This document shows, piece after piece, positions 6,836-13,162 of a DNA stretch of 22,306 nt. The stretch covers positions 1-22,306 of IMG/VR virus record IMGVR_UViG_3300033182_000246; one strand, given 5' to 3'. Source of the stretch: a virus. The notes below the pieces were generated by a model. The model worked only from the letters and a program-made list of their open reading frames with translations, did not search any database and had not been told where the DNA came from. Position 1 is the stretch's first letter. Each line of letters opens with the position of its first letter. Both the position numbers and the translations under genes were made by a program.

Positions 6836-7664
6836 ACATTACTATATTAACTACAATAACGGCGCAGCTGGACATACAATACTAACACATATTTTATATT
6901 CCTGCGGTCAAATTAGTAATAGTTTAGATAATTTATTCTCACCGGAGTCAAACTTACACGCAGTACAAAAACATCTGTTGTTATCGTGTCGACATCAAGA
7001 TCAATATGAGTTAAACGATGATATTTGTTTAATTGACATTAAAACTGAACAATGGAGTGAAGTTCTAAGACTAATCTTTTCCTATGCTAAGTGGCATAAA
7101 CAATATCCTACTATAAGCAATTATGATAGTTTTTTTGATCTTGACAAAATGAATATAAATTACAATAAAGAGTGGAATGATTTTTATAACAGTTACAAAG
7201 ACCCTGAGTGGCCTAGCTGCGCTAATTTTACCGACGTTAATACATTGCCCATGTGGATACAAGACGAGATTCATTCGGTGTATCAGCCACCTGTAACAGA
7301 AGTCACAGACAAAAATTTTGTTGAGTTATTAACAATTGCATATCGAGATGAATTTAAGATGCGTAGCAGCAATAAAGATGTGTCAAAGTATAACGGTAAT
7401 GTCTATTGTCTGTCTGACTATTACTTTGATCGCAACGTAGATGTTTTAAAAAGCGCAGCAACTAAAACATTAGGGTGGTCCTGGGACGATAACAAAAGCA
7501 ACAATATGTTTGATATTGTATTTGAAAAGAATAAAAAATATTTAAAAGAGCTTGCAAAGTTACAAGACGTGTATTATAATAGTGCCACTATAGAGTTACT
7601 TGACTGGCAAGTTGCAATTTTGCAAGCATTTAAAGAATTTAACGAGGAAAAGCACTATGGCTAA
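6828..7664 (+). CDS. Hypothetical protein upstream of uvsX
   Basis: This 278-residue protein is unrecognised. It is AT-rich, with many Asn, Tyr and Lys codons ending in A/T, unlike gp32 and uvsX on either side. Near the N-terminus GAAGHT (about residues 12-17) is vaguely P-loop-like, but it lacks the GK(S/T) lysine, so nucleotide binding is not claimed. Aromatic residues are frequent (many Trp and Tyr). The start overlaps the micro-ORF by 8 nt and the stop overlaps the uvsX start by 8 nt, so it is part of the uvsX operon. A late-promoter-like TATACATA (one mismatch) lies at 6813-6820, 7 nt before the ATG. Base composition suggests a more recent arrival than its neighbours (inference). Confidence 0.7.
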   Translation: MNRHYYINYNNGAAGHTILTHILYSCGQISNSLDNLFSPESNLHAVQKHLLLSCRHQDQYELNDDICLIDIKTEQWSEVLRLIFSYAKWHKQYPTISNYDSFFDLDKMNINYNKEWNDFYNSYKDPEWPSCANFTDVNTLPMWIQDEIHSVYQPPVTEVTDKNFVELLTIAYRDEFKMRSSNKDVSKYNGNVYCLSDYYFDRNVDVLKSAATKTLGWSWDDNKSNNMFDIVFEKNKKYLKELAKLQDVYYNSATIELLDWQVAILQAFKEFNEEKHYG

Positions 7665-8781
7665 ACCATTTGACGTAAGCAAATTCCGCAAAGACGTAAC
7701 AAAAGCAATTGACGGAATGAGCTTTGGATTTAATGATCCAACTGATTGGATCTCAACAGGCAACTATGCCTTGAACTACCTTATCTCAGGTGACTTCCAC
7801 AAAGGAATCCCAATGGGCAAGGTTACAGTATTTGCAGGTGAGTCAGGCGCAGGTAAATCATACTTTGCATCAGGCAACATTGTAAAACACGCACAAGAGC
7901 AAGGTATCTTTGTTGTGCTAATTGACTCAGAGAACGCATTAGACGAGAGTTGGTTACACGCATTAGGCGTAGATACGTCAGAAGAGAAACTGCTACGACT
8001 ATCAATGAGTATGATTGATGACGTTGCTAAAACAATTTCGTTGTTTATGAAAGACTACAAGTCAATGGCAGAAGAAGATCGTCCTAAAGTATTGTTTGTA
8101 ATTGACTCGCTAGGTATGTTGCTAACACCAACAGACGTTGACCAGTTTGACAAGGGTGACTTGAAAGGTGACTTAGGTCGTAAGCCTAAGGCACTAACAG
8201 CACTTGTTCGCAACACTGTTAATATGATTGGTGCTTACAACGTAGGCTTAGTAGCAACTAACCACACATACGCTTCACAAGATATGTTTGACCCAGATGA
8301 TAAAATCTCAGGCGGTCAAGGCTTTATCTACGCAAGTTCGATTGTTATTGCAATGCGCAAACTAAAACTTAAAGAAGATGAAGATGGTAACAAGATTTCA
8401 GACGTGCGTGGTATCCGTGCTGCTTGTAAAGTAATGAAAACTCGTTACGCTAAACCATTTGAATCAATTCAAGTTAAGATTCCGTATGAAACTGGTATGA
8501 ACCCATATTCAGGTTTAGTAGACATGGCAGAGAAGCAAGGCTTGCTAACCAAGCAAGGTAACCGATTACGTTATGTTGTAAAAGAAACAGGCGAAGAACT
8601 ACTACAGTTCCGCAAAGCATGGGAAAACAACACAGACGGTTGTTTGGATACACTAATGGAAGATTTCAATTTTGAGGTTCCAAAGGTAAGTAACGATGAT
8701 ATTACTGATGATGAAGTAGTAGAAGATGTTACAAACGAAGTAATGGAACAAGAAGTTGGAGAAGAAACAGTTGAATCCTGA
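7657..8781 (+). CDS. uvsX: UvsX RecA-like recombinase
   Basis: This 374-residue protein (T4 UvsX is 391) is an ATP-dependent strand-exchange protein for recombination-dependent replication. It would work with gp32, encoded upstream, and a UvsY-like mediator encoded downstream. Walker A is GESGAGKS at residues 61-68. Walker B-like FVIDS is at about 147-151. The RecA-type core continues to about residue 325, and the C-terminal tail is strongly acidic, as in many RecA/UvsX proteins. The frame is open further upstream, but ATG 7657 is chosen because GAGGA (7644-7648) lies 8 nt before it and the protein then begins MAKPFDVSKF, leaving no unrelated extension. It overlaps the preceding gene by 8 nt and the following one by 11 nt. 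Confidence 0.95.
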   Translation: MAKPFDVSKFRKDVTKAIDGMSFGFNDPTDWISTGNYALNYLISGDFHKGIPMGKVTVFAGESGAGKSYFASGNIVKHAQEQGIFVVLIDSENALDESWLHALGVDTSEEKLLRLSMSMIDDVAKTISLFMKDYKSMAEEDRPKVLFVIDSLGMLLTPTDVDQFDKGDLKGDLGRKPKALTALVRNTVNMIGAYNVGLVATNHTYASQDMFDPDDKISGGQGFIYASSIVIAMRKLKLKEDEDGNKISDVRGIRAACKVMKTRYAKPFESIQVKIPYETGMNPYSGLVDMAEKQGLLTKQGNRLRYVVKETGEELLQFRKAWENNTDGCLDTLMEDFNFEVPKVSNDDITDDEVVEDVTNEVMEQEVGEETVES

Positions 8782-9019
8782 ACTAGCAGTTGAAATCTGG
8801 GAAGCACTACGTCCTCATATTAGCGGCGCGGATACGCAAGCCGCAGAGGACTTTGCCCAAGTATGTATTGAGAACGGGTTAGAAGCAAGCGAAATGATTG
8901 AGCTTACACAAGACCGCAATATTAAAAAAGCATTTCTACAATTTGTAGACGTTGAGGAAGAAGAAGTCCTCGATGATGATTACGACGAAGACGAAGAACT
9001 GGACTTTGACAATTACTAA
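8771..9019 (+). CDS. Small acidic protein following uvsX
   Basis: This is an 82-residue protein from a TTG start at 8771. That start is chosen because GGAG (8758-8761) lies 9 nt upstream. An alternative TTG at 8756 would add five residues but lacks a good ribosome site. No ATG is available before the conserved-looking beginning NPELAVEIWEALRPHI. The body is predicted helical and the last 20 or so residues are almost entirely Asp/Glu. It overlaps the end of uvsX by 11 nt and the next start by 1 nt (TAATG). Small acidic proteins beside recombinases can act as modulators or DNA mimics, but no function can be assigned here. Confidence 0.75.
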   Translation: MNPELAVEIWEALRPHISGADTQAAEDFAQVCIENGLEASEMIELTQDRNIKKAFLQFVDVEEEEVLDDDYDEDEELDFDNY

Positions 9020-11178
9020 TGAACAACAAAAACACTGTGTACGATTTAGTTATTGCATCTATGCCGTACACTGATTATCTGGTTAACCCGCCTACTGGTC
9101 CTGCTGTGCTTAAAGGTGTAGCAGAAGCACAGGGTTTTAAGATATTAACAGTTGATTTTTCGCTTGAACTGCGAGAGTTTGTTCACAACGGTAACGATAA
9201 TCAGTACCAGGACCATCAGCAGTACTTTGCATCTAACCAAACGATAGACGAAGTTACTGATATAATGATTCCTTATTACTACGATTATATTATTGATCGT
9301 CTAGACAGTCTAGAGTTTCGTTATTTTGGAATGAGTGTATTTTCAATGCTCACACAAAAGGCAGTATTTGAACTTTGCGTGGAGCTGAGAAAACGTCGGC
9401 CTGATATTAAAATTGTTCTAGGTGGACACGGTCTAACCTCTTATAGTCACCACTCAATAAGTAAGTATATTGCAAAAGAAGAATATAAAACTGAGTTCTT
9501 AGATATTATTAAAACTAGGAACTTGGCAGATAGCTTTGTAGTAGGCGAAGGCGAAAACGCAATTATTGATCTCCTTCGAGGCAACACTGATAAATTCACT
9601 CATACGATTACATGGAACGCTGCCAATGACGGATTAAAGTACCCATATCCAAATTGGGATGACTACTACTTAGACTTGTATGACGGTTTAACTGGAAAAA
9701 ATGACATACAGTTATCCCTGGTGTCAAGCAAAGGCTGTGTAAGAAAGTGTGATTTCTGCAATATAGTACAGCACTTTCCTAAGTATCAAAGCAAGGATGG
9801 CGAGTTTCTGGCAGAAGAAATGGCATTCTTATCAAACAAGTACAATATCACTTCCTTTGCTTTCGCTGACTCAATAGCAAACGGCAATCTAGTATCATTA
9901 CGAGAGTTTGTGAAACATACTGCTGACTATAATAACGCTAATCCAGAAAAGTCAGTTACTTGGTCGGGTAACTGGATTGCTCGTCGTAAAGGAATAGTTA
10001 AAGAAGACTTTTATGTGCTCATGAAGCAGTCGGGTGCAGAACACCTGACTGTTGGTGCAGAACACGGTAGCAATCATGTTCTTGATGCGATGAAGAAAAA
10101 AACTGATGTTGAAGGACTGTTATACGAGCTACATCACTTTGATATTAACAATATACAGTGCTCTTTAAATACAATTACAGGTCATTGGGCCGAGACTGCT
10201 GAAGATTTTTTGGAGCATTGCGATGCCTTCATTAAACTGGCTCCAAAGTGTGCCAGCGAAACTATTACAAATATTAATTCCCATATATTTAAGACAATAT
10301 GGGGATCGCCAGCAAACGATAATCCTGGGATCGTAACTGGCATACATGATTACTCGTTAATTTGGTATCATAAAGATAATCCTAACGCTACCTTAAAGGT
10401 TCGACTTAATCGTTATTATCTATTTTTAACAATGCTTATGTATATTGGTATACCTACTAATCGCGATCAGAGTCGCTGGATAAGACATACTGTACAAGAG
10501 CTAAATGATACTTGGCAAGAGTGGAATGAGTTTGCGCAAGAAAACGTTGATCAAAAAAATGTTAATACTTGTCCAACTCTGTCGTTAAACGATAACTGGA
10601 TAGAGCACGTTGAGCAGCGCATTTGTGATTTTAACCCTCAAGGTAAAGTGACTGTTAACTTTTCTGCGCAGTCTGTTAACAGCAACCCAGCTATGTACAT
10701 TAAGGTTAATGATGAAGTAGTTCATTTTGACCAATACAGTACTGGTGATCACACAGTCACAGTAGAGTTTGATAACTGTTTTGATACTGCAACTAGCATT
10801 GCTATAGGAATGAATAATAAAAATTCTGGTGACACACTTGTAGATGACAGCGGTAATATTCTAGCTGACAAGTGTATTGAGTTTCAAAACCTAGTAATTG
10901 ATAATGTTGATATTGTAAAGTATCCAGATTTCTATTATAATAGTGGCAAAGTTAGCTATGTGGTGAATGGAAAAAAAGAACAACCGTGTCCTGGTTTGTA
11001 CGCAAACGGTGTAGTTGAGCTACAAGTTACATATCAGGCTCCTTTCTGGAAACATTTTATGAGTAACTCGCACATTAACTTCTTAGGATGTCATCCAAGT
11101 CACTACGAGAAAAAGATAACTGAGACTCAAGAAGATCTCAAGCTCCTCAAAGATTTAATCAGCAGGTACGAGTACTAA
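9019..11178 (+). CDS. B12-binding-type radical SAM protein with an extra C-terminal domain
   Basis: This 719-residue protein should use a [4Fe-4S] cluster and S-adenosylmethionine to start radical chemistry; its substrate is unknown. Residues about 7-190 resemble a cobalamin-binding fold: PPTGPAVLKGVAEAQGF at 24-40, LGGHGLTSYS at 134-143 and VVGEGEN at 174-180. No DxHxxG motif is seen, as in many radical SAM enzymes of this class. The cluster-binding motif is C240-x3-C244-x2-C247, followed by a TIM-barrel-like region with GAEHGS near 346-351. Residues from about 550 to 719 are extra and beta-rich. They contain an SGDTLVDDSGN loop and resemble a beta-sandwich domain recurring in marine phage proteins and calcium-dependent carbohydrate-binding modules (low certainty). 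The gene is coupled to both neighbours by 1-nt overlaps (TAATG). Plausible substrates are a sugar, lipid or nucleotide; this is inference. Confidence 0.82.
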   Translation: MNNKNTVYDLVIASMPYTDYLVNPPTGPAVLKGVAEAQGFKILTVDFSLELREFVHNGNDNQYQDHQQYFASNQTIDEVTDIMIPYYYDYIIDRLDSLEFRYFGMSVFSMLTQKAVFELCVELRKRRPDIKIVLGGHGLTSYSHHSISKYIAKEEYKTEFLDIIKTRNLADSFVVGEGENAIIDLLRGNTDKFTHTITWNAANDGLKYPYPNWDDYYLDLYDGLTGKNDIQLSLVSSKGCVRKCDFCNIVQHFPKYQSKDGEFLAEEMAFLSNKYNITSFAFADSIANGNLVSLREFVKHTADYNNANPEKSVTWSGNWIARRKGIVKEDFYVLMKQSGAEHLTVGAEHGSNHVLDAMKKKTDVEGLLYELHHFDINNIQCSLNTITGHWAETAEDFLEHCDAFIKLAPKCASETITNINSHIFKTIWGSPANDNPGIVTGIHDYSLIWYHKDNPNATLKVRLNRYYLFLTMLMYIGIPTNRDQSRWIRHTVQELNDTWQEWNEFAQENVDQKNVNTCPTLSLNDNWIEHVEQRICDFNPQGKVTVNFSAQSVNSNPAMYIKVNDEVVHFDQYSTGDHTVTVEFDNCFDTATSIAIGMNNKNSGDTLVDDSGNILADKCIEFQNLVIDNVDIVKYPDFYYNSGKVSYVVNGKKEQPCPGLYANGVVELQVTYQAPFWKHFMSNSHINFLGCHPSHYEKKITETQEDLKLLKDLISRYEY

Positions 11179-11630
11179 TGTGGTATACACGAGTCACAAG
11201 AGATCTATCTAAACTTCCTGAGTTCATTGACTATTATAATGATGAGCTTCAGGAAGCCAAGATGGAATGCGGCATACGAGGTAATGTTGAAAACAACATT
11301 AAACTGTTACCAGGCATTACAGAAACACGCTTTAATCAACTACAAGAGATTGAAGCAGTGTTAAATTATCTCAATATTGAACTTAGAAAAGTGCGTCGCA
11401 AGCACTTTCAAAAGTATTTAGAAGCATACAATCGCGCACTAACTTCGCGCGATGCAGAAAAGTATGTAGATGGCGAGGGCGAAGTAATTGATATGGAACT
11501 TCTTATTAACGAAGTTGCACTACTACGCAATCGTTACCTAGGCATTATGAAAGGCCTAGACGCAAAACAATGGCAAATGGGACACATTGTTAAACTAAGA
11601 ACAGCAGGTATGGAAGATGTTACAGTCTAA
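11178..11630 (+). CDS. uvsY: UvsY-like recombination mediator
   Basis: This 150-residue protein (T4 UvsY is 137) would load UvsX on gp32-covered single-stranded DNA. It is predicted largely helical and charged. The middle has a basic segment, LRKVRRKHFQKYLEAYNRAL, and then a DAEKYVDGEG turn. The C-terminus ends with a WQMGHIVKLRTAGME segment comparable with the end of T4 UvsY. Assignment rests on size, helical pattern and position in the uvsX operon rather than on a diagnostic motif, so it is probable, not certain. The start overlaps the previous stop by 1 nt (TAATG) and the following gene overlaps its end by 14 nt. Confidence 0.65.
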   Translation: MWYTRVTRDLSKLPEFIDYYNDELQEAKMECGIRGNVENNIKLLPGITETRFNQLQEIEAVLNYLNIELRKVRRKHFQKYLEAYNRALTSRDAEKYVDGEGEVIDMELLINEVALLRNRYLGIMKGLDAKQWQMGHIVKLRTAGMEDVTV

Positions 11631-12388: not shown

Positions 12389-13162
12389 ATGACTACAGTT
12401 GTATTAGCTACAGGCGGTTTTGACCCGATTCACTCAGGACACATTTCTCTATTAGAAGAAGCCAAGCAACTTGGCGATTATCTGGTAGTAGGCGCTAACA
12501 GCGACAACTGGCTTATTCGTAAGAAAGGACGCTACTTCCTGCCCTGGTATGAACGTGCAAAGATATTAGCAAGCCTAAAGCCAGTTGATCAAGTTATTGC
12601 GTTTAACGACAATGACAATACAGCCTGCGACGCTATTCAGATCTGTTTAGATAAATTTCCCAACGCAAGCAAAATTATTTTCATCAATGGCGGAGACCGC
12701 ACACAAGACAACATTCCCGAAATGGACAAGTTTTCAGGCAGAGACAGAGTTGTGTTTGCATTTGGAGTTGGCGGCGAAGATAAAAAGAACTCATCAAGCT
12801 GGATACTGGAACAGTGGAAAGCACCGCGCACAGATAGAGAATGGGGATACTATCGTGTTATACACAATGTAGGATTGGGTGTTAAGGTAAAAGAACTTAC
12901 AGTAGAGCCAGGTAAAACACTTAGTATGCAACGCCACGCTAAACGCAGCGAATATTGGTTTGTGGCAGAAGGCAAAGGACTTATTAACAGAGCACTCTCT
13001 GATGGTTACGCATTGCCTAGTCTAGAACTAGAAGAACACGATCAACTGGTTATTCCTGTAGGCGAATGGCACCAACTGGTAAACCCATACGATGCGCCAC
13101 TTAAGGTAGTAGAAATTCAATACGGCGAGGACTGTATTGAAGAGGACATTGAGCGCAAATGA
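12389..13162 (+). CDS. Fusion of a cytidylyltransferase-like domain and a PMI-type cupin
   Basis: This is a 257-residue two-domain protein. Residues 1 to about 145 are a nucleotidyltransferase of the TagD/HldE-C/CoaD superfamily: GGFDPIHSGH at 9-18 with the catalytic HxGH at 15-18, and a second nucleotide-binding element around NSSSWIL at 134-140. Such domains activate sugar or polyol phosphates as CDP or ADP derivatives. Residues about 150-257 are a cupin like the C-terminal part of type II mannose-6-phosphate isomerase. They include PGKTLSMQRHAKRSEYWFVAEG at about 174-195 and PVGEWHQLVNP at about 223-233, with H183, E188 and H228 as likely metal ligands. It is the first gene of a plus-strand operon whose later genes overlap by 4 nt. 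It probably supplies the activated sugar for the glycosyltransferases (inference). Confidence 0.85.
   Translation: MTTVVLATGGFDPIHSGHISLLEEAKQLGDYLVVGANSDNWLIRKKGRYFLPWYERAKILASLKPVDQVIAFNDNDNTACDAIQICLDKFPNASKIIFINGGDRTQDNIPEMDKFSGRDRVVFAFGVGGEDKKNSSSWILEQWKAPRTDREWGYYRVIHNVGLGVKVKELTVEPGKTLSMQRHAKRSEYWFVAEGKGLINRALSDGYALPSLELEEHDQLVIPVGEWHQLVNPYDAPLKVVEIQYGEDCIEEDIERK

Follow-up and report, generated by a model that had tools for sequence, protein, structure and literature searches.

A B12-fold radical SAM enzyme paired with a CBM60-like beta-domain recurs among recombination and replication genes in viral contigs

Here we describe a conserved phage pair, made up of a cobalamin-type (B12-fold) radical SAM enzyme and a beta-domain whose predicted fold resembles CBM60, which is encoded as a fused protein in one clade and as adjacent genes in others. 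What is new is the enzyme/beta-domain pairing and its repeated siting among recombination and replication genes; our literature search found no description of a B12-type enzyme with a beta-domain partner. The reading that we favor, with a probability of about 0.4, is that the pair modifies a carbon of a sugar or glycoconjugate, with the CBM60-like domain as recognition module, and travels as a cargo gene. B12-type radical SAM enzymes are mainly known from natural-product and cofactor pathways, and a phage-specific enzyme and recognition module found as a pair across diverse viral contigs make a compact, testable system. The stand-alone beta-protein provides a direct handle on the substrate, whose identity would show which molecule is the target of phage radical chemistry during infection.

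RESULTS

The enzyme gene and its neighbors

The window analyzed here is the whole of a 22,306-nt stretch of DNA (positions 1 to 22,306 of IMG/VR record IMGVR_UViG_3300033182_000246). Its UvsX is 61-67% identical to the best isolates, nearly all of which are jumbo phages (310-490 kb). The window is accordingly assigned to a jumbo-phage lineage, and the 22-kb viral record is probably a fragment of a giant phage. The original prediction of a 719-aa radical SAM ORF was confirmed, with CxxxCxxC intact and an N-terminal domain that is B12-type by fold (Table 1). A chance ORF can be excluded, since homologues with 34-41% identity occupy the corresponding position in further phage contigs. Both of its gene junctions have the 1-nt overlaps that had been claimed, and both are TAATG, but the direct link holds for uvsY and not for uvsX, from which the enzyme is separated by an 87-aa ORF. 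In most relatives this position holds a small ORF (about 70-92 aa), whether the enzyme is present or absent.

Table 1. Positions of the features discussed in the text (window coordinates, except for the last line)
Feature	Position	Strand	Remark
719-aa B12-fold radical SAM protein with fused C-terminal beta-domain of CBM60-like fold	9019..11178	+	ATG start
N-terminal Rossmann-like, B12-binding-type domain, residues about 1-190, without DxHxxG motif	9019..9588	+	
Radical SAM core, residues about 228-423	9700..10287	+	
CVRKCDFC, [4Fe-4S]/SAM motif (C240, C244, C247; residues 240-247), invariant in the family	9736..9759	+	
C-terminal beta-sandwich, residues about 541-683, conserved NK..DT.VD..GNI..DK; separate adjacent gene in distant homologues	10639..11067	+	
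Left junction TACTAATG: 87-aa ORF stop / enzyme start, 1-nt overlap	9014..9021	+	
Right junction TACTAATG: enzyme stop / uvsY start, 1-nt overlap	11173..11180	+	
uvsX-like recombinase	7657..8781	+	phrog_97 8.9e-70
Acidic 87-aa ORF separating uvsX from the enzyme	8756..9019	+	
uvsY-like recombination mediator, directly after the enzyme	11178..11630	+	phrog_231 3.8e-14
gp47/gp46 (SbcD/SbcC-like) loci	L262, L268, L269, L270, L272, L273, L275, L276, L278, L309		most with adjacent beta-domain gene

A radical SAM core preceded by a B12-type fold

Radical_SAM (PF04055) matches residues 236-402 with 34.6 bits, above the Pfam cut-off of 29.5, and the CxxxCxxC motif, whose presence in the radical SAM core places the protein in the radical SAM superfamily, was found in 33 of the 33 family sequences checked. 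An intact [4Fe-4S] site is predicted from the intact motif; in the structural model the loop that follows the motif, residues 249-255, is of low confidence. B12-binding PF02310 matches residues 81-145 below its cut-off (22.3 against 32.1 bits), and the fold alignment, which runs over residues 6-537 with AprD4 and over similar spans with OxsB and TsrM, puts an N-terminal B12-binding domain fold ahead of the core, as in class B. DxHxxG was not found in the N-terminal domain of the enzyme, and a missing DxHxxG does not exclude cobalamin binding in class B radical SAM enzymes. The sub-threshold PF02310 score and the absent DxHxxG both count against cobalamin use, for which the window enzyme is at most a candidate.

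The full-length AlphaFold2 model (16 family sequences; pLDDT 84, pTM 0.85) superposes best on the solved structure of AprD4 with paromamine (Z 21.0, 402 residues), followed by OxsB (20.6), TsrM (19.6) and MgmA (18.7). AprD4 is a sugar-acting radical SAM 1,2-diol dehydratase; it is 14% identical to the window protein, and the aligned model residues, 6-537, end ahead of the beta-domain. No counterpart of its reductase partner AprD3 was identified here. The class B enzymes TsrM, OxsB, MgmA and the TIGR03975 RiPP C-methyltransferases share with the window enzyme a B12-fold followed by a radical SAM core, CxxxCxxC and the overall fold (Z about 19-21), and the window family gives profile matches to TsrM (3.3e-7) and MgmA (4.7e-7). 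In contrast to these enzymes, to which it is about 15% identical, the window protein misses all family cut-offs, carries an extra C-terminal beta-domain and has no established cobalamin ligand motif. NCBIfam searches returned 17 matches, all far below cut-off, the nearest models being largely B12-binding radical SAM enzymes and several of them methyltransferases. The RiPP C-methyltransferase model rSAM_ocin_1 (TIGR03975) scored 57 bits against a curated cut-off of 281.85, which leaves the enzyme outside that family, and the twitch-domain model NF033640, not being among the 17 matches, does not claim it either. Overall the assignment of the enzyme to the cobalamin-type (B12-fold) radical SAM class is supported.

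The C-terminal domain has a CBM60-like fold

The separate beta-rich C-terminal domain that had been described is real: the final ~145 ordered residues of the model adopt a beta-sandwich, with strands at residues 541-672 (pLDDT about 90-97 over most of them) and then a C-terminal helix. When the C-terminal 215 residues were folded alone and searched against solved structures, the domain matched CBM60 2xfd (Z 11.3, rmsd 2.6 A, 103 of 109 residues) and 2xhh (Z 11.1), while the next unrelated structure scored 5.9; Foldseek gave a match to CBM60 with E 3.1e-4. The predicted beta-sandwich is thus that of the CBM60 fold. CBM60 PF16841 has no match in the window protein, profile searches of solved chains with the beta-domain revealed no CBM60 sequence relationship, and hhalign of the beta-domain against one weak CBM60 family member gave 0.8% probability. 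An attempt to find a sequence link through a bacterial CBM60 match yielded nothing usable. We regard the likeness as one of shared predicted fold, which does not imply membership. Compared with the Ca-dependent CBM60/CBM36 modules (2xfd, 2xhh), the domain has the same fold and, like them, a conserved acidic loop, but it is 10% identical, gives no profile match and is attached to a radical SAM enzyme instead of a glycoside hydrolase. From the fold resemblance, the beta-domain may be a putative Ca2+-dependent sugar-binding module. The suggestion that this domain binds the polymer being modified therefore draws support from the fold of a Ca-dependent carbohydrate-binding module but none from sequence.

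Enzyme and beta-domain form a conserved pair

In distant phage homologues the enzyme measures about 430-530 aa, and a separate neighboring gene, which mostly overlaps the enzyme gene or sits within 30 nt of it, encodes the beta-domain. L169, with the enzyme at 8995-10404 and the beta protein at 10404-10862, is one such natural split pair. A shorter enzyme with a separate adjoining beta gene indicates that the two parts are a conserved unit, which is fused in one clade. A first beta profile, holding three stand-alone sequences, had 73 matches among 10,980 ORFs from loci that were centred on the enzyme and included some refetched or near-identical copies: 30 were fused to a B12-type core gene, 39 adjacent to one and 4 apart. 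Of all 10,980 ORFs, only 479 (4.4%) adjoin a core gene. After iteration, a beta partner was found beside 45 of 68 unfused viral core genes, some of the others being cut by contig ends, and beside 0 of 74 core-family matches of bacterial loci. Two of the four beta genes that stand apart adjoin cytidylyltransferase-like genes. A search of a second set of 20 contigs found zero beta-domains, indicating that the domain is not universal in the lineage.

Single-protein searches with the window enzyme returned zero matches at E<=1e-5 in 50,697 phage records and zero relatives in viral contigs; at E up to 10 there was only a weak match, to a Streptomyces phage SF3 protein annotated as B12-binding radical SAM. 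The loci of relatives were reached via uvsX/uvsY and profiles. Profile A1 (three sequences) found 24 viral loci, 21 of them with uvsX or uvsY, and two further profiles enlarged the set. Once near-identical copies were removed there were 61 distinct viral-type loci, a count that includes two contigs binned with bacteria. The view that such enzymes are uncommon in phages is thus borne out by the phage records, where none was found, but not by uncultivated viral contigs, with about 60 distinct examples.

In a careful tree the fused proteins then known grouped as a single clade (100/100), whose sister was the unfused L164. A larger quick tree placed the fused L258 and L311, which have no uvsX nearby within the DNA covered, outside the uvsX-uvsY fused clade and inside a supported group (SH-aLRT 96), a position that is consistent with one fusion and subsequent movement. 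The window enzyme is a deep branch, with at most 44% identity to any relative over a partial overlap. Two relatives have unusual gene structures. An 821-aa ORF (L158:3166-5631) joins the first 87 residues of UvsY in frame with the radical SAM protein, either as a real fusion or by assembly error, and in L170 the enzyme is in two ORFs (8947-10173 and 10170-11114) with a 4-nt overlap where the radical SAM core ends, either a natural split or a frameshift error.

An optional insert at a variable slot

To place the enzyme in its lineage, we compared 153 ordered uvsX-uvsY pairs, with some loci representing overlapping parts of the same contig: 109 were empty (median gap 288 nt), 25 held a twitch radical SAM gene, 12 a B12-type gene and seven another gene. 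On the UvsX tree, presence of the enzyme needs 11 changes for 15 carriers, compared with 12-15 in shuffles; its distribution is nearly scattered. The nearest UvsX/UvsY relative (L002) is without the enzyme, and there the 87-aa gene is joined to uvsY by the same word as at the window's right junction, in a plain junction that reads AATACTAATGTGG. Because TACTAATG flanks both ends of the enzyme and the empty locus has the plain junction, the window enzyme was most likely inserted precisely between the 87-aa gene and uvsY. Other contigs have the enzyme ahead of the small gene (L153, L155) or behind uvsY (L157, L165). Within the lineage of the window, the enzyme is therefore an optional insertion, and the slot that it occupies varies. 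The enzyme had been described as lying inside a recombination operon; the location is correct, and other recombination/replication loci can be added to it, but a role in recombination does not follow from location because the gene is optional and its slot variable.

The slot also accepts GIY-YIG, methyltransferase and GDSL-like genes. One GIY-YIG/NUMOD3 homing-type endonuclease gene in it (L090:5410-6171) is a possible driver of insertion. Two unrelated radical SAM classes use this one insertion site. The twitch radical SAM genes at 25 of the 153 loci (for example L015:9310-10560, L075:7549-8817 and L009:2241-3533; NF033640 scored above cut-off in the three tested) resemble the window enzyme in their site of insertion, which in this lineage lies between the small gene and uvsY. 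They also occur as arrays in phage contigs, but their radical SAM class is another one and has an N-terminal twitch region.

Recurrence at other recombination and replication genes

Co-occurrence with recombination genes, one of two associations raised by the original prediction, was seen repeatedly: uvsX-uvsY, gp46/gp47 or DnaB genes are found beside or close to the enzyme in 28 of 61 distinct loci (15, 10 and 3, respectively), the other 33 being elsewhere. Of the 46 distinct loci in which the DNA covered has no uvsX/uvsY, 10 have gp46 and/or gp47 (SbcC/SbcD) beside or near the unit, with the enzyme between gp47 and gp46 in four; in three the enzyme is beside the DnaB helicase gene; and seven lie inside twitch radical SAM arrays, several with glycosyltransferase-like and 2-oxoglutarate-oxygenase-like genes. 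The gp46 assignment comes from Rad50 (2.1e-9) and that of DnaB from Pfam (3.1e-22). Well-supported branches of the tree imply at least three label changes for the uvsX-uvsY placement and at least two for gp46/gp47, where a change is a gain or a loss and one uvsX-uvsY entry (L167) is outside the slot, about 2.3 kb downstream of uvsY. This repeated siting may reflect function or hot spots.

Glycosyltransferase-like genes are near six distant loci. In 10 of the 46 distant loci a neighbor shows HxD...H, a pattern of 2-oxoglutarate oxygenases; the oxygenase label refers to this conserved pattern only. Many loci have twitch radical SAM genes. One cluster of such neighbors (L169:8369-8998 and relatives, in 14 loci) encodes proteins of about 210 aa with HxD...H as in 2-oxoglutarate/Fe(II) oxygenases, and a tested member had no Pfam match and no solved-structure match.

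The second association, with glycan genes, was not upheld, as the genes downstream of uvsY are equally common without the enzyme. A specific tie to the glycan genes of the window was accordingly rejected; a GT8 relative, for example, is present in 5 of 10 contigs with the enzyme and 37 of 80 without it. Within the window, positions 12389-13162 encode a protein in which a cytidylyltransferase is joined to a cupin of the mannose-6-phosphate isomerase type. This gene stands close to the start of a stretch of genes of glycosyltransferase-like, capsule-synthesis-like, sulfotransferase and methyltransferase type that extends to about 18455. The nearest homologues on bacterial chromosomes, from Bdellovibrionota MAGs, are 26-29% identical, have no beta-domain and lie within twitch radical SAM arrays with QueC-like PP-loop proteins. 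In L174, L175 and L177 these are twitch/SPASM arrays with QueC-like PP-loop proteins, and there are 13-19 twitch matches per genome. The idea that the bacterial clusters are glycan loci was unsupported, since in one Bdellovibrionota genome (G043) there is no GT2 or epimerase match within 85 kb of the homologue on its contig.

DISCUSSION

The predicted folds suggest that the substrate of the pair is probably a sugar or a sugar-bearing molecule. Sugars are an established substrate type for this enzyme class, because the substrate of AprD4 is the aminosugar paromamine, and aminoglycosides are methylated by GenD1 and GenK, two class B radical SAM methyltransferases (PMC5461906). In the mechanism that we propose, the [4Fe-4S] cluster would cleave SAM to the 5'-deoxyadenosyl radical. 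The beta-domain would hold a sugar or glycoconjugate, and the radical would activate an unactivated carbon of this substrate. Were cobalamin bound, as in class B, the outcome would be C-methylation; were it not, radical dehydration or similar tailoring would be expected, as in the sugar-acting AprD4. The beta-sandwich would serve in substrate recognition, and the unit would move between phages as a cargo gene, settling among recombination/replication genes. This reading also draws on the glycosyltransferase-like genes near six distant loci and on the cytidylyltransferase-like genes beside two of the beta genes that stand apart. Against it weigh the lack of a sequence match between the beta-domain and CBM60, the sub-threshold B12-binding score together with the absent DxHxxG, glycan genes that are no more frequent around uvsY when the enzyme is present, and the Bdellovibrionota homologue without a GT2 or epimerase match within 85 kb on its contig.

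Alternatively, the pair could act on a peptide or protein, as a RiPP-style C-methyltransferase or related maturase working on a phage (e.g. virion) or host protein that the beta-domain recognizes, and we consider this somewhat unlikely but a serious possibility. The best NCBIfam score is that of rSAM_ocin_1, a close homologue of the window enzyme scores 72.8 bits with ApyD, and MgmA, among the structural matches, is a protein glutamine methylase, yet every family score is far under the model cut-off and the fold of the beta-domain resembles a sugar-binding module. The oxygenase-pattern neighbors and the twitch radical SAM genes at many loci also speak for a peptide substrate, as proteusin clusters likewise combine a B12-radical SAM enzyme with an oxygenase, but no candidate precursor peptide was found; the 87-aa neighbor was ruled out as one, because the small gene by uvsX also stands there in phages without the enzyme. 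The radical SAM cassettes reported from the host-recognition cluster of pelagimyophages (PMC7029224) would fit a peptide substrate as well.

It is unlikely, in our estimation, that the enzyme is an auxiliary small-molecule or cofactor enzyme that hitchhikes in the recombination-gene slot and is unconnected with any polymer. Its radical SAM scores with metabolic enzymes of the BchE, BzaD and HpnJ types and the bacterial homologues in arrays with QueC-like proteins agree with such a role, but not the persistent pairing in phages with a recognition-type beta-domain that the bacterial homologues do not have. Modification of DNA, in which a base or a DNA-borne sugar is altered and the beta-domain reads sugar-decorated DNA, would account for the siting among recombination/replication genes at 28 of 61 loci and for the label changes in the tree. 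We nevertheless judge it about as unlikely, as no nucleotide-hypermodification gene was recognized within the window, 33 of the 61 loci are elsewhere and the uvsX-uvsY slot behaves as an insertion hot spot, taking genes as varied as twitch radical SAM, GIY-YIG, methyltransferase and GDSL-like. Slightly less likely still is the narrower proposal that the radical SAM system alters the phage's own sugar-decorated DNA, with the CBM60-fold module reading the DNA-borne sugar; action on such DNA would explain why the unit is kept beside uvsX-uvsY, gp46-gp47 or the replicative helicase in independent lineages.

Radical SAM genes are numerous in some phages. One marine T4-like genome has 12 of them (PMC5332604), and in Tasman Sea viromes radical SAM and glycosyltransferase genes are prominent together (PMC7150976). 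Among the contigs collected here, that of L137 (G007:C1:38183-58419) has about 14 consecutive twitch radical SAM matches in about 20 kb, with 17 profile matches contig-wide.
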